Assembly (NCBI GenBank): GCA_029257385.1
Contig: JARIBS010000073.1
Coordinates: 1-64,000, forward strand
Direction: 5' to 3'
DNA: 64,000 nucleotides
Source: Thiorhodococcus sp.
GTDB taxonomy: Bacteria; Pseudomonadota; Gammaproteobacteria; Chromatiales; Chromatiaceae
Shown here: positions 9,057 to 63,500 of the stretch, piece by piece
How positions within the stretch are numbered: the first letter of the stretch is position 1
How the letters are laid out: each line of letters opens with the position of its first letter
Notes under the pieces: model-generated
Seen by the model: only the letters and a program-made list of their open reading frames with translations
Database searches by the model: none
What the model was told of the DNA's origin: nothing
Made by a program: the position numbers and the translations under genes

Positions 9057-9743
9057 TCAAGCCGCGAGCTGCTTCAGATCGACATCCGCGAGTGCGGCGT
9101 CGACAAGCTCGGCGAAACGCCGCTCGGCCTCATCACCATCGTGACTGGTCCAGCGAGCGATCAGATCCCAGCGCATCAAATAGATGACAACCGCCTCGAA
9201 ATCAAAATAGTGTCCGTCGCTGATGCGCTCCAGATGCGACCAGACGACGCCCAGCAGCAATCGCTCGAGTGCGAGTGCATCGTTGGCGACGATATGGCGC
9301 TCGGCCTCGGCGAGCCAGGGGAAAACGCCTTCGAGCCGAAAGCCCGGCTCGCTCCAGTTGCGGCGGATCTGCCCAAGCCAACGCCCGAAGCCCCAGCGAT
9401 TATTGTGTGGCGAGGGTTCGCCGTGATGGCGCCGGCGCAAGGCCGCAATCAGCGTGCGCAACTCGAGCCGCCACACCACCAGATCACGCGCGAACGCATT
9501 GTCGATCTCGGCGACTTGATCGCGCGCCCAGGCCATGATTTCGATGTCGCTGCGGGCCTGTTCCTGGTGCGTCCAGTCCAGCAATTGACTGACTGTGGCG
9601 AGGCGGGTGGCATCCTCTGGCTCCAGCAGCCGCAACCGCTGTTGGAGACGAAGCCGCGACAGCGGTGTCTGCTTGGCAGCAAACAGCGACCCATGATAGG
9701 GCAGGGTGTTCATGAGCATGGCGTAACGATGAGAGTCGGTCAC
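9057..9743 (-). CDS. DUF2764 family protein, V-ATPase associated
   Basis: The 228-aa protein has the features of DUF2764, a family found in bacterial V-type ATPase operons. These are an N-terminal YAMLMNTLPYHGSLFAAKQT segment and a helical WARDQVAEIDNAFARDLVVW body. Such proteins resemble the archaeal/V-type C subunit in being helical and encoded next to subunit E, and a structural or assembly role is inferred, not proven. Here it follows subunit E with a 14-nt gap. In related operons it is followed by subunits A and B, which are absent here. No signal peptide or membrane segment is seen, so it is cytoplasmic or peripheral. Confidence 0.75.
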   Translation of the reverse strand: MTDSHRYAMLMNTLPYHGSLFAAKQTPLSRLRLQQRLRLLEPEDATRLATVSQLLDWTHQEQARSDIEIMAWARDQVAEIDNAFARDLVVWRLELRTLIAALRRRHHGEPSPHNNRWGFGRWLGQIRRNWSEPGFRLEGVFPWLAEAERHIVANDALALERLLLGVVWSHLERISDGHYFDFEAVVIYLMRWDLIARWTSHDGDEAERRFAELVDAALADVDLKQLAA

Positions 9744-9757
9744 CAGCGGGTTGCTCC

Positions 9758-10459
9758 TTACTTGACCGTACCTTCGAGAATGGCGCGGAAGCGTGGCTGT
9801 AGATGCGCCAGCAGCAGCGCCGCGACCTTGTCGTCAGTCAGGTCGATGTGCACATTTTTGTCCTTGAGATACAGCCGGATGCCCTTGTCCGCGTGCGCGT
9901 CCACCGCGAAGGTCAGCCCCTCGGCCAGCACGTTACCCGCCAGCGAGAGCACGAAATGCGAGAGCGATCCCTCGCGCAGCTCTAGCGGATTGCGGCGTAG
10001 CTCCTCGGGGCTGACCAGCGCCTTGGGGAGTTGGACCTCTACCGCCTGACCGCTGTCGATGCCCGACTCAGCACGCGCCTGCGCGGCCACTTCGAGAATC
10101 AACTGGCGCAAAAACTCCTCCTGCTCCAACTCCATGGAAATGAGCCGCTGGACCTCATCGCTGAAACGATTCGCCAGCTCGACCTTGAGACGCAGGACGG
10201 TATCGCGCATGGCGATGCGCAGTGACTCTTCACCGCCCTTAAGGAGCGCCTCGGCCTCGTGCCGTGCCGACTCGATGATCTGTTGGGCGCGTGTCTCGGC
10301 CTCGCGCAGTTGCCGGTTGGCCTGTTTTCTGGCCTCGGTCTCGATGCGCTCGGCCGCGACGCGCCCGGCCGCGACGCCTTCGTCGCGCAAGCGCTCGATG
10401 AGCGTCTCAACGCCGGATGAGGCCAGTTCCTGGGTGCGCTTTTGCTCCACTGTCGTCAT
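9758..10459 (-). CDS. ntpE: V-type ATP synthase subunit E
   Basis: The 233-aa protein has the layout of the V-ATPase peripheral stalk subunit E. A long N-terminal charged coiled coil (GVETLIERLRDEGV then heptads rich in A, E, R and Q, about residues 15-120) is followed by a C-terminal globular domain ending LLLAHLQPRFRAILEGTV. Subunit E forms the stator that links the catalytic head to the membrane subunit I. It lies 21 nt after subunit K and 14 nt before DUF2764 on the same strand. No partner G/H gene is visible, as in other compact bacterial V-ATPase operons. Confidence 0.88.
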   Translation of the reverse strand: MTTVEQKRTQELASSGVETLIERLRDEGVAAGRVAAERIETEARKQANRQLREAETRAQQIIESARHEAEALLKGGEESLRIAMRDTVLRLKVELANRFSDEVQRLISMELEQEEFLRQLILEVAAQARAESGIDSGQAVEVQLPKALVSPEELRRNPLELREGSLSHFVLSLAGNVLAEGLTFAVDAHADKGIRLYLKDKNVHIDLTDDKVAALLLAHLQPRFRAILEGTVK

Positions 10460-10480
10460 GGCGATGGTCTCTTGTCCTGA

Positions 10481-10927
10481 TCAACTGGGGATCGCGCCGG
10501 CCAGCACCAGCGCGAAGACGAAGGCAAACACCGCAAAACCCTCGACGATAGCCGCTGGCGCCAGCGAGAGACCGAAGATCTCGGGCTTGGTTTTGCTCGC
10601 ATGGATGGCCGATGCGCAGGCTTGCCCCTGGCGCACCGCCGAAACCAGCAGCGCCAGACCCGCCAGGAGTCCGATACCAAAGAGCGCGGGTGCGGTTGCG
10701 GGCGTGACCGCGCGTTCGAGGGTGAACATGATCACGATGCCATAGATGACCTGGGAGGAGGGCATCACCGAGACACCGATATAGCGCCCATACCCCGAGT
10801 CCGTATCGACCATTGCGCCGATCGCGGCTTGTCCGGCCACGGCGCAGCCGATCATGCTGCCGATTGCCGACAACGCCATGACTCCGTAGAGTCCCGCCCA
10901 GCCCAGGGCGACCACGAATTCATTCAT
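10481..10927 (-). CDS. ntpK: V-type ATP synthase subunit K (membrane rotor proteolipid)
   Basis: This 148-aa protein has four membrane helices arranged as two hairpins, the duplicated V-type c-ring subunit. The ion-binding Glu lies in the last helix (SLAPAAIVEGFAVFAFVFAL). Residues equivalent to the E. hirae NtpK sodium ligands also seem present: S and Q in MPSSQVIYG (helix 2) and Q in AVRQGQACAS (helix 3). This suggests a sodium-binding rotor, by inference from alignment by eye. The ring needs many copies per complex. A stem-loop that covers the ribosome binding site lies just upstream. The gene sits between subunits I and E. Confidence 0.9.
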   Translation of the reverse strand: MNEFVVALGWAGLYGVMALSAIGSMIGCAVAGQAAIGAMVDTDSGYGRYIGVSVMPSSQVIYGIVIMFTLERAVTPATAPALFGIGLLAGLALLVSAVRQGQACASAIHASKTKPEIFGLSLAPAAIVEGFAVFAFVFALVLAGAIPS

Positions 10928-10929
10928 CA

Positions 10930-10960
10930 GTTTCTCCGCGAGAAACCCCGCACATCAGGG
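10930..10960 (-). promoter_or_regulatory. Tandem stem-loops upstream of ntpK, one covering its ribosome binding site
   Basis: In the 92 nt between ntpI and ntpK there is a perfect 7-bp hairpin at 10930-10946 (GTTTCTC and GAGAAAC with a 3-nt loop). Next to it is a GC stem pairing CCCCGC and GCGGGG at about 10946-10965. In the minus-strand mRNA the first hairpin's 3' arm holds the GGAGA Shine-Dalgarno sequence, only a few nt before the ntpK start at 10927. It could modulate translation of K, or protect a processed 5' end. The function is inferred. Confidence 0.5.
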
Positions 10961-11019
10961 CGGGGAGGGATAGTGACCGCACGCGATCACCGTCATGACA
11001 CGCCGCGTTGGCGCTTGCG

Positions 11020-12825
11020 CTACTCTCCGGCCTGCGCCTTCCTGAACGGTTTGAACGGATAGCCCTCGCCGGACAGTGACCAATTGTAGAACTCGATAAA
11101 GTTCAGCCGCAGCCCATGGACCACACCACTCATCAGCGCCAACGACAGATTGAGCAGGTGGCCGATCAGCAGGATCAGTAGCGCGAGAAATAACCCCGTT
11201 CCCGGCACGTTTTCAACGACCTGGCGCGCCAGGTCGTTGAAGGTGATGGCCAGCGAGGACGAGGCCAGCCCGAGCGCGAACAGACGCAGATACGACAGGA
11301 CATCGCCAAAGACCTGCGTGACCTTTACGAGATGCGCGAGTCCGTCGAGTATGCGCAGTGCAAACGACTTTACGCTATCGAGCGGACGGTCGCTGCCGAA
11401 CAGAAACACCGTCGCGAGTCCGCCGAGCCCTAGAATCTGTCCGCTCAGTGACAGCCAATTGCCGGGCTGGCCGTTGCTGCCGAGCCAAAAACAAAAGCCC
11501 CCGACCAGCCCCGCGATCCAGCCGATCGCCACCCGCCCGACGGCACTGCGGCGGTTGCTGAACGCCATCTCGGCGTTGGCGAGGACCAGATGCATCACAC
11601 CGATACCGACCGACAGGCGCATCATGGTCGTGAAGTCGTGGATGTCGAGAACCTTGAGCTGACCCAAGATGCCGTCCGGGGCGGGTGTGACGCCGAAATA
11701 GCTCCCGATCAGGATACCCCAAATCAGCGAGCCTCCAGCCAGGGCCGCCGCCAGCACACGCAGACGCTGACCAAGATCGCTGCGCCCGAGCCGACGCCAG
11801 AACCCAGCGATCAGCACCCCGAGCACCATGGCATAACCGGCATCGGAGAGGATCAGCGCGAAAAAGGCCGTGAATGAGAAAAACAGCACCCGCGATGGGT
11901 CCCAGGTATGGTACGCCGGCATCTGATAGAAGCCGACCAGATCTTCTCCGGCGGCCAGCGCGGGCGGATTATCGAGTAAGGTCGGCGGGCGATCCTGCGC
12001 TCCCGGTGTCTCCAGGATGAGCGCCAGCCCCTGTGCATCGGCCAATGCGCGCACCCCGGCGACATCGCGCTCGGCAACCCAGCCCTGGACCAGAAACAGC
12101 GCCTCCTCATCAAGGGTCTGCGCTTCGGCAAAGCGCAGCCGGGCGGCGTTCTCGACTTGTGCGAGATCGCTCGACATCAGATAGATCCAGCGGGTGAGGG
12201 CGTGACGCTGGGCTTGGGTCTCTTCCAGTTCGAGTTCGGCGCTCTCGAGTTGGCGGCGCACTTCGCTCAGCCTGAGCGAACCCGTATGGGCGCGTGGGAC
12301 CGGCAAGGCATCGCGCGCGGGCTCCTCGGGACCGATGACCACTACCCAGGATTGGCGATGGTCGCGATGCACCACCTGCCAGGGCAGATCCAAGTCCGCC
12401 AGCTCGCTCATCTGGCGCTGTGGAACGATGTAGAACCAGAGCTTGAGGTCGGCGAAATCACGCTGCGCCGGTAGCCTGAAATCACCCCAGGGTTCGAGTT
12501 CGGCTATGCGCTGGCGCAGCGCGTCGCGCCGGTCGGTTAGATCGCGCAGTCGCTGCTGATTGGCCAGCACGCGCCGAATCGTGATGCTGACGTCGAAGTC
12601 GGGATCATCGCGCACCTGGCGGCGCTTCTCGCGCAGATCGCCCAGATAGCGCAATGCCTTGCGGGCATCGACGGCATGTGCAGGCGGCTCGCGCTCGGGT
12701 TGCTTCGGGGCCGGGCCGAGCGGCAGCAGATGAATGCACCCGAGTGACTGGAGCTGCTCGAGCACCGTCTGTCTTTCATGGATCAGCCCAGCCAGTGTCA
12801 GCTTGTAGAGCGGTAGAATACTCAT
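11020..12825 (-). CDS. ntpI: V-type ATP synthase subunit I (a-subunit)
   Basis: The 601-aa stator membrane subunit has a soluble, partly coiled-coil N-terminal half (about residues 1-300). The hydrophobic C-terminal half has about seven to eight helices. The hallmark VLSYLRLFALGLASSSLA stretch (about 510-527) supplies the arginine region that faces the proteolipid ring. The final segment, SGVVHGLRLNFIEFYNWSL, is also typical of V-type I subunits. The protein conducts ions between the membrane halves with subunit K. Its start overlaps the end of subunit D by 4 nt. The length is normal for bacterial I subunits and no lesion is visible. Confidence 0.93.
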   Translation of the reverse strand: MSILPLYKLTLAGLIHERQTVLEQLQSLGCIHLLPLGPAPKQPEREPPAHAVDARKALRYLGDLREKRRQVRDDPDFDVSITIRRVLANQQRLRDLTDRRDALRQRIAELEPWGDFRLPAQRDFADLKLWFYIVPQRQMSELADLDLPWQVVHRDHRQSWVVVIGPEEPARDALPVPRAHTGSLRLSEVRRQLESAELELEETQAQRHALTRWIYLMSSDLAQVENAARLRFAEAQTLDEEALFLVQGWVAERDVAGVRALADAQGLALILETPGAQDRPPTLLDNPPALAAGEDLVGFYQMPAYHTWDPSRVLFFSFTAFFALILSDAGYAMVLGVLIAGFWRRLGRSDLGQRLRVLAAALAGGSLIWGILIGSYFGVTPAPDGILGQLKVLDIHDFTTMMRLSVGIGVMHLVLANAEMAFSNRRSAVGRVAIGWIAGLVGGFCFWLGSNGQPGNWLSLSGQILGLGGLATVFLFGSDRPLDSVKSFALRILDGLAHLVKVTQVFGDVLSYLRLFALGLASSSLAITFNDLARQVVENVPGTGLFLALLILLIGHLLNLSLALMSGVVHGLRLNFIEFYNWSLSGEGYPFKPFRKAQAGE

Positions 12826-13427
12826 GCCAAGCCTTCGCGTCGGCGTTTGTTCTTGGCGATCTTGGAGCGCACCACCGCGGCGCGCTCGGCGTCCGATAGA
12901 TGGATGCGAATTTTCTTGATATTCGCCTGCGCCTGCGGGATGAGCACTTTTTCAAACAGATTCACCCGCTGGGTCATTTTGCGCACCGCCTCTTCGAGCA
13001 CGCTCACACGACGCTCACGCAACGCGAGCAGGACGCGCAGCTCAAGCATCCGCACCAGCGTCTCGACGAGTGTATCGACCCAATGCGGTTTGGTCATATA
13101 ACCGTACTCCTGTCGCTCAATATCCACGCCGAGCAGCACTGGCAAACGTGTCCCCATGAGATTCTCCTCATCGAGCCGCACCGCGCGCACCCGCACCAGG
13201 GTGTTCAGCTCCATCTCCCGATTGGCGATCATCGGCAGATTCTGGCGCACTTCCTGGCGCAGTGCGGCAATGGCTGCGGTTGTGTGCGAGCGCTCGCGCA
13301 GCGCCTTGGCGCGCTCCATCATCAACTGCTTGCGCTTGAGATCGAGCGCGGGCAAAAAGCGCTCGAAGCGCTTAAGCTGCTGGGTCTGCTTGGTCAACGA
13401 GGATTTACTCAGACTCAGGCGGGACAT
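12822..13427 (-). CDS. ntpD: V-type ATP synthase subunit D (rotor axle)
   Basis: The 201-aa protein is predicted to be mostly helical and matches V-type subunit D. It has an N-terminal SLTKQTQQLKRFERFLPALD helix that enters the catalytic head and a matching long C-terminal helix (VNLFEKVLIPQAQANIKKIR, ending in a basic tail). Subunit D is the central shaft that couples ATP hydrolysis in A3B3 to the K ring. It is the first gene of this minus-strand block. In related operons subunit B precedes D, but here only a 269-nt noncoding stretch and an unrelated lipoprotein gene lie upstream. Confidence 0.9.
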   Translation of the reverse strand: MSRLSLSKSSLTKQTQQLKRFERFLPALDLKRKQLMMERAKALRERSHTTAAIAALRQEVRQNLPMIANREMELNTLVRVRAVRLDEENLMGTRLPVLLGVDIERQEYGYMTKPHWVDTLVETLVRMLELRVLLALRERRVSVLEEAVRKMTQRVNLFEKVLIPQAQANIKKIRIHLSDAERAAVVRSKIAKNKRRREGLA

Positions 13428-55518: not shown

Positions 55519-55881
55519 TCAGATCAGCTTGCTGATCTGCTCGGCGGCGCGCTTTACATCGAGAAAAATCAGACCCAGCTTGGCATTGGGCTTGGCTATG
55601 ACGGTGATTACGGCATCGTGACCGGCGTGCGTCATGAGCACATAGCCTTTGGCGCCCTTGATCAGAACCTGCTCCAGCTCGCCGCGGCCAAGCTCTTGCG
55701 CAGTCCGTTCGCCTAGAGAGAGCATGGCGGCGCTCATGGCGCCGACGCGGTCTTCGTCCATACTGGCGGGCAGTTGCGAGGCCATCATCAGGCCGTCGGT
55801 AGAGATGACCCCGGAGGCTTCGATATCGGCGGAGGTGCCATTAAGCTCTCCGAGCACGGAGTTGAGCATGTCAGCGCGCAT
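55519..55881 (-). CDS. Roadblock/LC7 domain protein
   Basis: The 120-aa protein is a canonical roadblock/LC7 (MglB-type) module: MLNSVLGELNGTSADIEASG, VISTDGLMMASQLPASMDED, VGAMSAAMLSLGERTAQELG and GYVLMTHAGHDAVITVIAKP. MglB-like proteins dimerise and act as GAPs or partners for small MglA/Arf-like GTPases, one of which is encoded about 0.9 kb upstream. The start is set at ATG 55881, preceded by a good ribosome binding site (GAGGAAATCACAATG). A 254-nt gap upstream to the next gene may contain its own promoter; no gene is seen in it. Confidence 0.88.
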   Translation of the reverse strand: MRADMLNSVLGELNGTSADIEASGVISTDGLMMASQLPASMDEDRVGAMSAAMLSLGERTAQELGRGELEQVLIKGAKGYVLMTHAGHDAVITVIAKPNAKLGLIFLDVKRAAEQISKLI

Positions 55882-56135
55882 TGTGATTTCCTCTTCCTTT
55901 TTTTGCGTTGCAGTGGTTGGTTTCAAAAGCGAATACTGGGGACTCGGTAGAACTCGGCCCCCATTAACAGCCAGGAATCGCACCGGCTCGGTGAAGCGAC
56001 CGTAAGGATTGCTGGGACTCCCGCTAAACACCGACTCGACGGACGGCTCGGGAGTCACATGCACGTCGCCTGCGTGCACGTTCAATGTCTGTTATCCGAA
56101 TCCAGACATCAGGCTTGTGGCCATGGACTTAGGTC

Positions 56136-56768
56136 TCATTGGGCATAGCGCTTGCTCAACGCCCAGACCAGCTCGGTCAGCGCCGGCTGGTTGAGGTGCG
56201 GCACGCCGCTGATGATGAGCACGAAGCGCTGCTCGGTGATGTAGAGCGGCCAAAAGCCGGTCTGGCTGTTGCCCGCCGCGTCCACCAGCGCCCAGGCGCT
56301 GGTGCTCAAGCCCATATTGCGCTTGAGCAGACCGCGATGGCGCTCGTACAGGGACGCCAAGTCCGCGCTGGCCGCCGAAAGCTCCACCGAGGTTTCGTGG
56401 TTGAAGCCGACGGACGCTATGTGGAAGCCCTGGGCATCGGCGAGAAGCGCCTTGCCGGTGGCCGAAAGCGGCTCCAGCAAGCCAGGGAGCACGTCTTCGA
56501 GCGCACCGTCCGGGGCCGTTTGCGGGTCGGCGAAGCCCTCTACCCAGCCCAACGTCTGAAGGTGATAGAGCAGACCGAGCGCCTCGTCCTCGCTCTGCGT
56601 GTCGGCCCATTCGGTCAGGGCGTCAAGCTCGAGCTGGTGGCTCGATTCCGTGCTGAGCAGACGTTGGAGCAAACGGCGTGGGGGATCCTGCTGCGGGTCC
56701 GCCACACTGTAGAAGGCGCCCGCAGGCGTGGGCAGAACAAACTGGTGATCGAGCAAGCGATAACGCAT
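56136..56768 (-). CDS. Protein of the GTPase/roadblock cluster, possible roadblock-like C-terminus
   Basis: The 210-aa protein is of uncertain family. The N-terminal half (about residues 1-95) looks like a small helical or winged-helix domain (ALGLLYHLQTLGWVEGF). The C-terminal half (about 110-205) has the strand-helix pattern of roadblock folds: GKALLADAQGFHIASVGFNH, a helix with LASLYERHRGLLKRNMG, then SAWALVDAAGNSQTGFWPLY and ITEQRFVLIISGVPHLNQPA. It may be a divergent roadblock partner of the GTPase whose gene lies 3 nt upstream. The fold call is by eye only. Confidence 0.55.
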   Translation of the reverse strand: MRYRLLDHQFVLPTPAGAFYSVADPQQDPPRRLLQRLLSTESSHQLELDALTEWADTQSEDEALGLLYHLQTLGWVEGFADPQTAPDGALEDVLPGLLEPLSATGKALLADAQGFHIASVGFNHETSVELSAASADLASLYERHRGLLKRNMGLSTSAWALVDAAGNSQTGFWPLYITEQRFVLIISGVPHLNQPALTELVWALSKRYAQ

Positions 56769-56771
56769 GGC

Positions 56772-57311
56772 TTACTCCACCTCGAGTCCCGGGTCGAGGG
56801 CAAAGAAGAGCGCCTCAAGGAGGATGGTGATGTCGGAGCGCTTGCGCGCATCGACCTCGAAGATCGGCACCACGAGTCCGCAGTGTTGCAGATAGTCGTG
56901 ATACACACCCAGCCGTGAACCGGGTCTGAGATCCGTCTTGGTGATCCCGACGGCGAGCTGGGTCTCACGGATAAAGCCATCGAAGGCGTTGACGAAAAAC
57001 TCCATGTCGCCGAGCGGATTGGGGCGCGAGTCGTCGATCAGCAGAACCAGCCCCAGGCCGCCTTTGGCGAGGATGCTCCACATGAAGTCGAAACGCTCCT
57101 GGCCTGGAGTACCGTAGAGATGGACCTTCTCCCCACCTCCGAGCTTCATCAGCCCATAGTCCATGGCCACCGTCGTGGTGGACTTCATGGACTGGGTCAT
57201 GTCGCTGGCGCGTGCGTCCGTGGAAACGGCCGGGGCATCGCTGACAGAGGCAATGGCTGTTGTCTTACCCGCCCCGACCGGGCCGGTGAATATGATTTTG
57301 TGATCTGACAT
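56772..57311 (-). CDS. Arf/MglA-like small GTPase
   Basis: The 179-aa GTP-binding protein starts at ATG 57311 (MSDHKIIFTGPVGAGKTTAI), with P-loop residues 10-18. It also has the switch I-like STTTVAMDYG, the switch II LYGTPGQERFDFMW (GTPGQ instead of DTAGQ, as in CvnD-like bacterial GTPases) and GITKTDL in the G4 position. Such GTPases pair with roadblock proteins in signalling and polarity switching. It is followed after 3 nt by a possible roadblock relative and later by a canonical roadblock protein. Nucleotide binding appears intact. Confidence 0.88.
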   Translation of the reverse strand: MSDHKIIFTGPVGAGKTTAIASVSDAPAVSTDARASDMTQSMKSTTTVAMDYGLMKLGGGEKVHLYGTPGQERFDFMWSILAKGGLGLVLLIDDSRPNPLGDMEFFVNAFDGFIRETQLAVGITKTDLRPGSRLGVYHDYLQHCGLVVPIFEVDARKRSDITILLEALFFALDPGLEVE

Positions 57312-57355
57312 ACCGTGCGCTTTGTCTCGGTGAGTGAGGTTGGCTCGTTTTTCTA

Positions 57356-58648
57356 TTAACTGCGCAGGTGCGACAGAATCCGGCGAAACAGACTGCGTTT
57401 CACCGGCTTTTCGGGCGTTGTCGAGCGCTTGAACTCGCAGCTCTTGCCCGGTGCTTGGTCTTTCGCGACCGCTTCCATAAGCCCGAGCGCCTCTGCGGCG
57501 GTAAAGAAGGCGAAGACGCAACGCTGCGGAACCTTGAGGATTCTGGCGGCATCGACCAGCGAGACCGGATCATGTGACAGGAAGGCGGTGATGCGCACCA
57601 CGTTGGGGAAGGCAGCCAACCGGGTTAAATTCGGCCACCGCTTGAGCCTGATCTTCGCCGTGATGTCGGTGCCCATCGGCACACGTCCACGCGAGGCGAA
57701 CAAGGCCGCGCTCCAGAGTAGCGATTCAAGCTGCCAGATCCGGTATCGAGGTACTTCCGAGAGATTGAAATGATCGACGAAATGCAGTGTGCTGCTCTCT
57801 TCGGTCAGCGGCACCACTGCCAGTGTTCGCAGCTGAAAGTGCTGCAGGTCGACCACCGCCAGCCCCGTGCGCGGCATCAGGGTGATGGAGCCATGCTCCA
57901 GCACCAGCCTGACGATACGGTCGTTGCTTATCGCCAGCTTGAGCGCTTGTCGAAGCTGTCCGATCAGATAGGCGTCGGGCTCGAACTGGGCCTTGGCAAG
58001 CTGCTGCGGATTCTTGGGGTCGATGTCCGGCGCCAACCCGATGAAGGTCTTGGTATCGTGCTCTGAGAATCTGTGACCGACGGACCCACGGGAGGTCGCG
58101 AGTACGGAACCGTTATTCAACTCCTCTCCCAGTTTGTGCGGTGGGTCTGGGACGGGTACGGGTGTCGGTCGGCTCGGCTCCACGTCGGAGCGGCCCTTGG
58201 GGACCGCTTGGTCAACGGAGACTGCCGGAGATTGTCGCCCGCCCGCCGCCTTCGTCGTTTCGACGCCGCTGCAGGCGGCCGCAGCCGTCAGGGCTTCAAT
58301 GAGATCCTGCGGTCTCAACGGCTTGCGCACAAAGTACGTCCGGCCCGTGACCTCGACCTCCTGCATCGAGAGCAAGATCATGGGCTGGCTGGGCTTGGCC
58401 TCGGCCTGCTTGATCCAAAGCTCCCGACCACCATAGCTGTCTAAGTCGATCAGATAGACATCGGCCTCGTTCGCGTCCGTGAATGCGAAGCGCCCGCTCA
58501 ATCGGCTCTTGAAGAGAAGCTCCATGGCGTTTTGCATACGCGGCTCGAAGCCAAGCGCGGCAATTGTGCACACGGCAGGATTTGCCTCCTGAGCGGCGTC
58601 GATCGTGCCCGGGGAGCTGGCAAACGTGTTGATCTGCAACATGGGCAT
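57356..58648 (-). CDS. Receiver-like protein with long C-terminal region, GTPase cluster
   Basis: The 430-aa protein has an N-terminal receiver-like fold (about residues 25-122). DVYLIDLDS carries a possible phospho-acceptor (Asp68/70), and ILLS (Ser94) and VRKPLRPQDLIEAL (Lys109-Pro110) complete the layout of a response-regulator pseudo-receiver. A Pro/Ser-rich linker (about 125-200) leads to a C-terminal domain (about 205-405). Its last part, SLVDAARILKVPQRCVFAFF then TAAEALGLM, resembles a helix-turn-helix or winged helix. The C-terminal domain is not recognised. It lies 44 nt before the GTPase gene in the same direction. Confidence 0.65.
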   Translation of the reverse strand: MPMLQINTFASSPGTIDAAQEANPAVCTIAALGFEPRMQNAMELLFKSRLSGRFAFTDANEADVYLIDLDSYGGRELWIKQAEAKPSQPMILLSMQEVEVTGRTYFVRKPLRPQDLIEALTAAAACSGVETTKAAGGRQSPAVSVDQAVPKGRSDVEPSRPTPVPVPDPPHKLGEELNNGSVLATSRGSVGHRFSEHDTKTFIGLAPDIDPKNPQQLAKAQFEPDAYLIGQLRQALKLAISNDRIVRLVLEHGSITLMPRTGLAVVDLQHFQLRTLAVVPLTEESSTLHFVDHFNLSEVPRYRIWQLESLLWSAALFASRGRVPMGTDITAKIRLKRWPNLTRLAAFPNVVRITAFLSHDPVSLVDAARILKVPQRCVFAFFTAAEALGLMEAVAKDQAPGKSCEFKRSTTPEKPVKRSLFRRILSHLRS

Positions 58649-58661
58649 GCGCTCCTGTTCG

Positions 58662-59471
58662 TTATCGTATCGTGAGCGGGTCGCCAGCGTCTGGAGTCGC
58701 GAACTGCTCGGTCCGGGATCTGTCTGAACTCGCCCGGCTAAAGTCGCAAAGCGCCTGCATACTCAGAAACTCCGCCGTCTCCAGCCAGGCGTCTGGCGCC
58801 GGGTTTTGCGCCGCGTCCTGCAATTTCCACAGTGCGTCGAAGCGCTCAAGATCCAGGGTTGCCCGATAGATCTCGAGCAGCTCCAAATGAAGCTCCAGGC
58901 GCGACGGCTCGCTCAGCAGCGCCTCTTCGAGCAGTCTCCGCGCTTCGTCCAACTGCCCGTATTCCAGATAGCTGCGGGCTTCGTCGAGCGGATCCCGTGT
59001 CTCGTGGCGGTCTAATCGCTCGACCAGGATGCGCGCGCCTCGCGTCCCCTTGCTGAGCATGGAGCCGGGCGCACACGGGATGGGATCGGCCGCATGCAGC
59101 CCGCTGTCGAGTTTGCGTACCAGCGCCTGATACTGTCCGCGCTCCAGCAGGCGTTTGGCGGTATCCAGCATTCTCTGTCGCAGCGACATGCCCTTGGAGC
59201 CGAGCGCGATGAACAGGTCGACCAGCGCAGCGTAGCTTCCACCAGCGTTCGTCTCGGCGACATGCAGGACGATGCGTTGTACGTGCACTTTGAGGTCACT
59301 CGGAAAGCGCGCGACCTGATGAGCGAGAAAGGCGCACGGATCACCGATATTCTGTGATTGCGCCAGCTGGAGTTCGCTGCTTCCGGGCAACACGAAGGCG
59401 CACTCCGTCCTGCCCGAGAGGCGCTGCTCAGAGCCGTTGCCGACCTCCTTGACGATCTCGACGAGGCTCAT
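58662..59471 (-). CDS. Tetratricopeptide-like protein heading the GTPase cluster
   Basis: The 269-aa protein is taken to start at ATG 59471 (MSLVEIVKEVGNGSEQRLSG), which follows an AAGGG ribosome binding site. The N-terminal half (about residues 1-120) is not recognised. The C-terminal half has a TPR/FimV-type repeat (DEARSYLEYGQLDEARRLLE, then EALLSEPSRLELHLELLEIY, about 175-215), suggesting a scaffold. It is the first gene of the minus-strand signalling unit and lies 13 nt before the receiver-like gene. Role inferred only from neighbours. Confidence 0.6.
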   Translation of the reverse strand: MSLVEIVKEVGNGSEQRLSGRTECAFVLPGSSELQLAQSQNIGDPCAFLAHQVARFPSDLKVHVQRIVLHVAETNAGGSYAALVDLFIALGSKGMSLRQRMLDTAKRLLERGQYQALVRKLDSGLHAADPIPCAPGSMLSKGTRGARILVERLDRHETRDPLDEARSYLEYGQLDEARRLLEEALLSEPSRLELHLELLEIYRATLDLERFDALWKLQDAAQNPAPDAWLETAEFLSMQALCDFSRASSDRSRTEQFATPDAGDPLTIR

Positions 59472-59704
59472 GGTGCGCACCCTTATGTCGCGACGCATTG
59501 GAAAGATGCCTACCCTCGATTGCCGCTTGCGTACTTGAGGGCGGACGACCTCGGACAATGATCTGAAAGTTTGTGCCATTTCAGTCATGTAGCGGTAGTC
59601 TAGGCAGGTCGGCAGAAAAAAATCGTGACTAATGTCCCTAATGCTTAAGGTTGTTTAGCCAATGACGAGGCGGTGAGGCGGGTACAGCGCAACGGCTTGC
59701 ATGG

Positions 59705-61711: not shown

Positions 61712-62218
61712 TCAACGCGTGTCGTGGTCGTCAGGGCGTGCTTGCTCGTCTGCCAATCCGAGGTGACTGGTGTCAGGCGGATCGATCTCGGGAGTTTGCG
61801 GTTGGCAGTCCGCAAGCGTCCATTCGGGTTCGGATACTAGGCTGAGATGGCTGAGATCCAGCTCCGGCATCTTAACCTCCTGGGGTGCTTCGAGAAAGCC
61901 GCCCTGGGGTGCGAGGCGCAGCCCCGAGCCCTCGTCCCCGCCCGGCGCGGCTTCTGCGGTGTGCTCTGAACCCATGGTATCGGAGTCTAGGGGCACGACG
62001 CCGAGCACCGCTCCGGCCTCATCGAAGACCCGCGTATAGCGCGCCGCAGTTGCTGCGTCGACATTGCGCTTGATAAGGACTGGCTTGCCGGCGAAAAGGC
62101 GCGCCACGGCCTGTTCGTCGAGCTTGAAGACGGTGCCCAGATGCTTACGCGTCCGGTCCGGGTCGGCGCCTGCCTTGAGCGTTCCGTCAAAGCGAATGTC
62201 GAATCGTACGTCTGACAT
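61712..62218 (-). CDS. Small conserved protein with N-terminal domain common in proteobacteria
   Basis: The 168-aa protein has an N-terminal domain of about 75 residues (VRFDIRFDGTLKAGADPDRT, VFKLDEQAVARLFAGKPVLI, ARYTRVFDEAGAV). This domain is often found at the N-terminus of proteobacterial membrane and zinc-ribbon proteins and is of unknown function. The rest is acidic and probably disordered (MPELDLSHLSLVSEPEW, DPPDTSHLGLADEQARPD). It shows no membrane segment. It precedes the oxidoreductase gene by 10 nt on the same strand and follows the AAA-FHA gene by 34 nt. Confidence 0.65.
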   Translation of the reverse strand: MSDVRFDIRFDGTLKAGADPDRTRKHLGTVFKLDEQAVARLFAGKPVLIKRNVDAATAARYTRVFDEAGAVLGVVPLDSDTMGSEHTAEAAPGGDEGSGLRLAPQGGFLEAPQEVKMPELDLSHLSLVSEPEWTLADCQPQTPEIDPPDTSHLGLADEQARPDDHDTR

Positions 62219-62252: not shown

Positions 62253-63500
62253 TCAGCGAGATGTGTCGCGTTCCTTGCCAAGCATCAGACGCATGCGATT
62301 GCTGTCGATCGTGAGAATATCGCCGTCCTTGAGAAGTTGGCGAGCGATGATGCGCTCGTCATTGACATAGACGCCATTGGTGCTGCCGAGATCCTCAATC
62401 GAGAGATTCGCGCCATCTGCCGTAAGTCGCGCGTGATAACGGCTGACCTTGAGGCTGCGAATACGGATGTCGTTGTCGCTGGCGCGGCCGATAGTGATGG
62501 CCGCTTTTGTAATCGCAAAGGGTGTGTCCTGAGCGTACTCGAGGATCAGGCGCGGGTTATCTGTTTGGGACGCAGGCGATTTGGCGGCGGCTTTCTGCAT
62601 CGTGCCTAGCACCGGCTCCCACTGCAACGCGTTGAACGTGGTCTGTACCAGATCCGGGCTGATGTGGCGGATCTGTCCAAGACAGGCGTTGAAGAGGACG
62701 AAGTCACAAAGCGTATTGATCAGCCGCATACTCCCGCCGGTGAGCATGTACAGGCGGGCCATCGCGCGCTCGGTGAAGGGATTTTGCCGTGCTTTGGCGA
62801 GTTCGATGAGGTGGTATTGAATGTAGTCGCAGGTATCGGACTCGTTTAGGGGGTTCAGGTAGGTCTGGAATTCAACCAGATTCTTGACATCCGTGAGCGC
62901 CGAGTGCGCCAGGGTGCGCTCAAAGCCATCCTGGCCGATGAGCACAACGAAGAGCCCCCGCTTCTTTTTGGTTTTGGTTTTGGCCGTGTGCTCAATGAGC
63001 CGTGGCAACAGCGCTAGAAGCGCAGGCTTGAGATTTTGCGCCTCGTCGATCACCAGGATGACACGCCGTCCATCACGGTTTTGCTCATCGACGAATGCGA
63101 TGAAGCGCTCGATCATCCAGGCCGTGTCGAGCACCTCGGGATTGAGTTCAAATCCGTGGAGCAGAATCTGTAGAAAGTCCGTCTCAGCCGACAGGGTTCG
63201 GTTGAGTTTGGCAACACGAAAGCCCTCTCCACAACGGTCGACAGCATGATTGGCCAGGGTCGTTTTACCCGAACCCGGCGCGCCATTCACAACGATCAGA
63301 CCGCCTTCGGCATGCGTCAGAACTGACTCGATCTCCTTCAATGCAGTGCTCAGTTCGGCATTGAGGTAAGGAGCGGAGAGCTCCGCGCTACTTTTGAATG
63401 GAGGCAGGCCGAAACCGAAGAAGTCCAGATAATTGAGCTTGCCGATCAATGCGGTGCGCGACTGAGTCTCAAGCCCGGTCTTAGCCCTGACGGATGCCAT
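62253..63500 (-). CDS. ExeA/GspA-like AAA ATPase fused to an FHA domain
   Basis: The 415-aa protein combines two modules. The first (about residues 20-300) is an ExeA-type AAA ATPase: YLDFFGFGLPPFKSSAELSA, Walker A VVNGAPGSGKTTLANHAVDR, Walker B VILVIDEAQNL, arginine-rich MARLYMLTGGSMRLINTLCD. The second (about 325-405) is an FHA domain (TIGRASDNDIRIRSLKVSRY, LSIEDLGSTNGVYVND) that would bind phosphothreonine. Unlike ExeA it lacks the C-terminal membrane helix and peptidoglycan-binding domain. It lies between the V-ATPase A fragment and a small conserved gene. Role unknown; a phospho-regulated ATPase is suggested by the domains. Confidence 0.85.
   Translation of the reverse strand: MASVRAKTGLETQSRTALIGKLNYLDFFGFGLPPFKSSAELSAPYLNAELSTALKEIESVLTHAEGGLIVVNGAPGSGKTTLANHAVDRCGEGFRVAKLNRTLSAETDFLQILLHGFELNPEVLDTAWMIERFIAFVDEQNRDGRRVILVIDEAQNLKPALLALLPRLIEHTAKTKTKKKRGLFVVLIGQDGFERTLAHSALTDVKNLVEFQTYLNPLNESDTCDYIQYHLIELAKARQNPFTERAMARLYMLTGGSMRLINTLCDFVLFNACLGQIRHISPDLVQTTFNALQWEPVLGTMQKAAAKSPASQTDNPRLILEYAQDTPFAITKAAITIGRASDNDIRIRSLKVSRYHARLTADGANLSIEDLGSTNGVYVNDERIIARQLLKDGDILTIDSNRMRLMLGKERDTSR

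Follow-up and report, generated by a model that had tools for sequence, protein, structure and literature searches.

What does an ExeA-like AAA+ protein do once it ends in an FHA domain, and is it still an ATPase? Both questions are raised by a gene close to the end of a 64,000-nucleotide stretch of Thiorhodococcus sp. DNA (contig JARIBS010000073.1, positions 1 to 64,000; referred to below as the window). A sequence-only reading had described its product as an ExeA-like ATPase without the usual membrane and peptidoglycan-binding tail that ends in an FHA domain, had suggested phosphothreonine control, and had seen no Ser/Thr kinase in the window. We examined these proposals by comparing domains, structures, genomes and gene neighbourhoods.

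Results

A soluble AAA+ protein that ends in an FHA domain

The open reading frame is complete and starts with ATG (Table 1). Pfam matches to AAA_22 at residues 65-197 (2.6e-15) and, above the gathering score, to FHA at residues 335-398 (PF00498; 4.2e-19, 69.2 bits against a cut-off of 20.7) confirm that an ExeA-like ATPase domain is joined to a C-terminal FHA domain. Pairwise dN/dS values of 0.17-0.32 for six orthologue pairs, from a simple count and at high dS, point to purifying selection on the gene.

Table 1. Features of the ExeA-FHA gene and its product, in window coordinates.
Feature	Position	Strand	Basis
CDS, ExeA-like AAA+/FHA protein, 415 aa	62253..63500	-	ORF call, Pfam, NCBIfam, orthologues
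N-terminal tail, residues 1-22, found in Chromatiaceae orthologues	63435..63500	-	model confidence low at 1-15
AAA+ domain, residues 24-293, ORC/Cdc6-TnsC-MuB type fold	62622..63431	-	Pfam, NCBIfam, model, structure matches
Walker A, residues 73-81 (GAPGSGKTT)	63258..63284	-	orthologue alignment, column comparison
Walker B, residues 149-154 (LVIDEA)	63039..63056	-	orthologue alignment, column comparison
Arginine-finger position, codon 208 (Leu)	62877..62879	-	column comparison; E. coli RuvB R174 alignment
Sensor-2 position, codon 259 (Arg), kept 9/9	62724..62726	-	column comparison
AAA+/FHA linker, residues 295-316	62553..62618	-	pLDDT <50 at 301-313
FHA domain (Pfam stretch, residues 335-398)	62307..62498	-	sole PF00498 match in genome

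An AlphaFold2 model built on an alignment of 36 sequences had a mean pLDDT of 86.4 and a pTM of 0.68, with weak stretches at residues 1-15, 301-313 and 410-415. In structure comparisons, run as a second pass over Foldseek's own matches, the AAA+ part was closest to Cdc6/ORC (top Z 21.2 over 254 residues), with ShTnsC (Z 19.3 over 249 residues) and MuB (Z 18.8) also matching well, and PHROGs returned weak transposition and clamp-loader matches, the top one a transposition protein at 55.1 bits. The protein thus falls in the same AAA+ fold group as the target-selection proteins MuB, TnsC and IstB, but differs from them in lacking an arginine at position 208 and in carrying an FHA tail; no transposase was found by Pfam among the neighbour proteins scanned.

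The likeness to ExeA/GspA of the type II secretion system, such as Aeromonas ExeA, lies in a homologous AAA+ domain with Walker A and B motifs. The window protein differs in having no transmembrane segment, no peptidoglycan-binding domain and a loss of family arginines (see below), and has an FHA tail instead. Pfam gave no PG_binding match in it, and a simple hydropathy measure over 19-residue windows predicted no membrane helix (maximum mean 1.37 overall and 1.12 past residue 250). The earlier description was therefore right that the tail is absent, but calling that tail usual overstated the case, since 64 of 96 sampled FHA-less ExeA-family proteins have no strong hydrophobic segment past residue 250 (mean <1.6); 13 of the 96 have fewer than 290 residues. 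The genome also encodes two ExeA-type paralogues, one on contig C56 (AAA_22 plus PG_binding_1, with an adjoining T2SSB gene) and one on contig C97. No GspB/T2SSB protein was found by Pfam in the nine neighbour proteins of the ExeA-FHA gene and two upstream ones.

The FHA pocket is conserved

The FHA residues that contact a phosphopeptide (Arg, Ser, His and Asn), to which the sequence-only reading had tied its proposal, are present and conserved. Among 36 FHA-bearing ExeA-family proteins, R339, S353 and H356 are kept in every one and N375 in 35, the exception, counted among the 36, being a protein (L013) with Ala at the Asn375 position. Arg354 (23/36) and Asn380 (24/36) are more variable, and in the first eight orthologues aligned, Gly338, Arg339, Ser353, Arg354, His356, Ser373, Asn375, Gly376 and Asn380 were invariant. 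With the pocket kept to this extent, the FHA domain should be competent to bind phosphothreonine.

This conservation bears on the idea that the FHA domain plays a structural part or docks independently of phosphorylation, as proposed for EssC in type VII secretion. EssC/EccC proteins of that system resemble the window protein in combining FHA with P-loop domains in a secretion motor, and PMC4925161 indicates that FHA domains on such motors can lack the phosphothreonine residues: those residues are absent from EssC-N, and no partner was found. EssC differs from the window protein in being a membrane protein with FtsK-like modules as well as in its FHA residues (PMC4925161). Since the binding residues of the proteins studied here are kept in 35-36 of 36 across Gammaproteobacteria, we consider phosphorylation-independent docking quite unlikely.

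The structures nearest to the FHA part, among them EmbR (Z 17.7, rmsd 1.7, 34% identity over 102 residues) and a GarA complex, DgcB and OdhI (Z 16.4-16.6), raise the different possibility that the domain recognises a phosphothreonine in the N-terminal tail of the same polypeptide, in the manner of GarA, OdhI and Bdellovibrio DgcB, and so switches the AAA+ domain. Self-binding has been published for DgcB, and GarA and OdhI are also called self-interacting in that paper (PMC6733907). Residues 1-22 form a partly conserved tail ahead of the AAA+ core in Chromatiaceae, modelled with low confidence, and are the candidate self-ligand. No tail threonine is shared by all nine Chromatiaceae proteins, however: the Thr12 position holds Thr in six, and Met or Ala in the other three. 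Apart from lacking a fully conserved threonine for self-phosphorylation, the window protein differs from GarA, OdhI, EmbR and DgcB in the domain to which its FHA is joined. We therefore set aside an intramolecular N-tail phospho-ligand as the main reading and retain it as an improbable rival.

One kinase, one phosphatase and one FHA protein

The genome assembly (3.38 Mb, 143 contigs, rated 99.99% complete) contains a single PF00069 match, a 312-aa Ser/Thr kinase on contig C138 between genes that we read by eye as rph and yicC. The earlier observation that the window holds no Ser/Thr kinase is thus borne out, and the search of the genome locates the one kinase outside it. A single PP2C phosphatase match (PF13672) lies on contig C93, and the only PF00498 match is the window protein itself. 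By comparison, three other genomes of the genus, of 5.7-6.3 Mb, have 5-9 FHA and 4-7 kinase matches. The smallest genome retains both the FHA protein and the kinase, which makes a functional pairing of the two plausible from gene content.

The kinase gene (L001:1387-2325, minus strand) encodes HLD instead of HRD and DLG instead of DFG. We take its motifs to be a VIK lysine, an HxDxKxxN loop and Asp-Leu-Gly.

Across the family, a related kinase was found in 171/210 genomes (E <= 1e-30) and the FHA protein in 9/210 (E <= 1e-40). All nine FHA-protein genomes carry the kinase, at 83-100% identity to that of the window genome. Neither genetic linkage nor a matching distribution connects kinase and FHA protein: in the window genome the kinase lies on another contig, and across the 210 genomes it is widespread where the FHA protein is rare, so that the kinase probably has other work. 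Phosphothreonine control, as originally suggested, thus stands as a possibility, given the conserved pocket, one Hanks-type kinase and one PP2C match, but no dedicated kinase-reader pair emerged.

Another candidate ligand for the FHA domain was the C-terminal tail of the kinase. All nine kinases from FHA-protein genomes have an extended tail that closes with (E/D)SR and two further residues; it is missing in five of six kinases from genomes without the FHA protein, and the sixth has a different, longer tail (the comparison covered 15 of the family-wide kinase matches). We rejected this candidate because the tail has a threonine in only six of the nine, and the split may follow phylogeny.

The Chromatiaceae branch has lost the arginine finger of the family

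To ask whether the AAA+ part is an intact ATPase, we compared alignment columns across 135 ATPase domains, comprising 99 FHA-less proteins, 27 other FHA-bearing proteins and the nine Chromatiaceae orthologues. The nucleotide-binding residues are intact: each of the nine orthologues has Walker A K79, T80 and T81, Walker B D152 and E153, sensor-2 R259, and N262. Several other positions that are nearly invariant elsewhere have changed in this branch. R208 is present in 99/99 FHA-less and 26/27 other FHA-bearing proteins but in only one of the nine Chromatiaceae proteins (G033). R166 (97/99 and 26/27) is Pro in all nine, and R230 (99/99 and 26/27) is Gln in eight and His in one. Likewise, P258 (99/99 and 25/27) is replaced by Met, Ile or Phe, and H50 (95/99 and 25/27) by Leu or Met, in all nine.

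In a profile alignment against a single RuvB sequence, position 208 aligns with R174 of E. coli RuvB (probability 92.2), a residue identified as an arginine finger in PMC10071043. In the model it sits at a helix/strand junction, at the end of helix 200-207 and before strand 209-215, and alignments of MuB and VchTnsC also place an arginine there. The arginine finger that precedes beta-5 in this ORC/TnsC/MuB type of AAA+ fold is absent from the window protein, where position 208 is Leu. From the RuvB alignment and the junction placement, the Chromatiaceae branch may be read as nucleotide-binding without a trans-acting arginine of its own. A nearby arginine could serve as a substitute finger; position 210 is Arg in four of the nine orthologues and Glu in the window protein. 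The losses are found in nine genomes of one family and may represent a single event. With the finger and other near-invariant residues gone, the label ATPase looks doubtful for the window protein.

These changes must be weighed against a more conventional view, that the protein is an ATP-hydrolysing ExeA/XrtA-type homo-oligomer for a secretin or for exopolysaccharide export, its FHA domain being a tag for regulation or localisation. In NCBIfam the ATPase part comes closest to TIGR03015, the XrtA/PEP-CTERM-associated ATPase, and some FHA-bearing relatives do lie in XrtA polysaccharide operons. Outside Chromatiaceae, XrtA-type polysaccharide export genes stand beside ExeA-FHA genes at four loci, including G065, where the ExeA-FHA gene comes after genes for XrtA/PEP-CTERM polysaccharide export (TIGR03027 at 200.7 bits, cut-off 180; TIGR03007 at 340.8 bits, cut-off 278.85). 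The intact Walker motifs also fit this view. The window protein scores below the curated TIGR03015 cut-off, however (130.1 bits against 324.5), and such sub-threshold scores are unspecific, as the T2SS ExeA of the same genome receives 263 bits. No XrtA operon was found beside the window gene, nor was such a context found beside the other Chromatiaceae genes, and the clade has lost the arginine finger that 26/27 other FHA-bearing relatives keep. A conventional ATPase is therefore, in our judgement, unlikely.

The gene neighbourhood does not single out a partner

The gene for the A subunit of a V-type ATPase lies directly upstream of the ExeA-FHA gene and runs past the end of the window. Three of the nine orthologue genomes, representing two genera, have the A gene directly ahead of the FHA-protein gene; G001 has it at the end of an unbroken V-ATPase operon, and G103 likewise has it upstream. 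This position could suggest a regulator of the adjoining V-type ATPase. That ATPase type is present in only 4/9 FHA-protein genomes, however, and is absent from G002, G003, G033, G035 and G051. When 14 A-gene loci were checked, three had the FHA-protein gene within reach, three (G093, G096 and G098) lacked it but had cysC and DUF2333 downstream of the A gene, and in the other eight the fetched flank contained none of cysC, DUF2333 and the FHA-protein gene. Since the cysC/DUF2333 order exists without the FHA protein, and five of the nine genomes are without this V-ATPase type, the adjacency is probably positional. On synteny we therefore reject V-ATPase regulation as the main reading, and we regard it as very improbable.

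Homologues of cysC and/or DUF2333 occur near the FHA-protein gene in seven of the nine Chromatiaceae genomes (checked by Pfam for G033 only), and ExeA-FHA genes outside Chromatiaceae lie near purE-purK at six loci (PurK checked by Pfam for L045 only). No neighbour common to all nine orthologues was found.

The V-type ATPase operon, contiguous in G001, is split in the window genome. Window positions 9057-13427 on the minus strand hold the D and I genes, along with genes in the places of K, E and a DUF2764-like gene (the first two assigned by eye). The A gene (L003:3606-5474; contig C100 63605-65473, minus strand) is separated from these by 50 kb and adjoins the FHA-protein gene; a B gene, 92% identical to that of G001, is on contig C13 (L042). 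Directly downstream of the ExeA-FHA gene, a 168-aa gene (61712-62218, minus strand) went unmatched in Pfam, NCBIfam and PHROGs at E <= 0.001. Further away, at 55519-59588 on the minus strand, a row of genes encodes a Roadblock/LC7 protein, a small GTPase-like protein that matches PF03029, and three proteins with no Pfam or NCBIfam match, which we take to resemble an MglA/MglB-type GTPase cluster.

The fusion occurs across Gammaproteobacteria and may have a single origin

Orthologues of 44-68% identity are present in eight further Chromatiaceae genomes. More broadly, repeated copies of the architecture, for which the earlier reading had proposed a search, proved to be spread among genomes, the window's own genome having the single FHA match. 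Matches running into the FHA part occur in at least 26 of 369 sampled gammaproteobacterial genomes, from a manual count of the rows that extend to profile position 401 or further; these include two partial at the start (G335 and G452) and two with in-frame stops (G284 and G411). Each of the latter matches (L198 and L200) has two in-frame stops in the search alignment, and in both genomes a 392-aa open frame still carries both domains and a second FHA-bearing open frame lies nearby. Of 30 class-level loci fetched, 24, including the window's own, encode an FHA domain in frame with the ATPase part, and the other six lack it.

When 73 ATPase domains were placed in a tree (36 FHA-bearing rows, 31 chosen FHA-less rows and six new ones), the presence of FHA required four label changes, compared with a mean of 24.8 on shuffling, and well-supported branches force at most one. 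Thirty FHA-less rows, including the T2SS ExeA and the C97 protein of the window genome, form one group at 100/99. The counts include L048 and L205-L210, which have no FHA domain though placed among FHA-bearing rows. An earlier tree of 109 rows (16 with FHA), which left out L020, L027 and L031 for having no ATPase match or one of insufficient length, gave two changes. In both trees the midpoint root is arbitrary and long rows (L211, L013 and the Chromatiaceae branch) are placed less certainly, and the proportion of 16 FHA-bearing proteins among 112 relatives is not a population frequency, as the sample was chosen partly by likeness to the query. With four changes, one gain and three losses of FHA would suffice, and the well-supported branches of the 73-domain tree, forcing at most one change, allow a single origin of the fusion.

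We found no publication on an ExeA-FHA or PEP-CTERM-ATPase-FHA architecture in a literature search of open-licence texts.

Discussion

We tentatively favour a reading in which the window protein is a soluble, cytosolic member of the ExeA family whose FHA domain docks on a phosphothreonine partner, and which works as an ATP-bound adaptor or as a subunit of a mixed assembly rather than as a classical ATPase. The one Hanks-type kinase of the genome would write the phosphothreonine and its one PP2C phosphatase would remove the phosphate. Docking of the FHA domain on the mark made by the kinase would bring the AAA+ module to its partner. ATP would be bound but not efficiently hydrolysed by a homo-oligomer, and the protein could then act as an ATP-bound adaptor. 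Alternatively, it could join a second AAA+ protein, for example one of the ExeA-type paralogues of the genome, as a subunit of a mixed ring or filament and rely on that partner for the arginine. The client would probably be an envelope or secretion-assembly process, as judged from the family of descent.

A bolder version of this reading, which we regard as doubtful, is that the Chromatiaceae protein is a phosphorylation-gated pseudo-ATPase. It would bind ATP and lack a complete site as a homo-oligomer, and its FHA domain would carry the kinase signal to a mixed ExeA-family assembly. One kinase, one PP2C phosphatase and one FHA protein may then be the whole phosphothreonine circuit of the organism.

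Two well-studied parts, an envelope-assembly AAA+ domain and a phosphothreonine reader, are united here in one soluble protein. The fusion is spread over many gammaproteobacterial families, and one branch, in Chromatiaceae, has discarded the arginine finger of the family. With a single kinase, a single phosphatase and a single FHA protein detected in the genome, what a bacterial FHA protein reads becomes a directly testable question.
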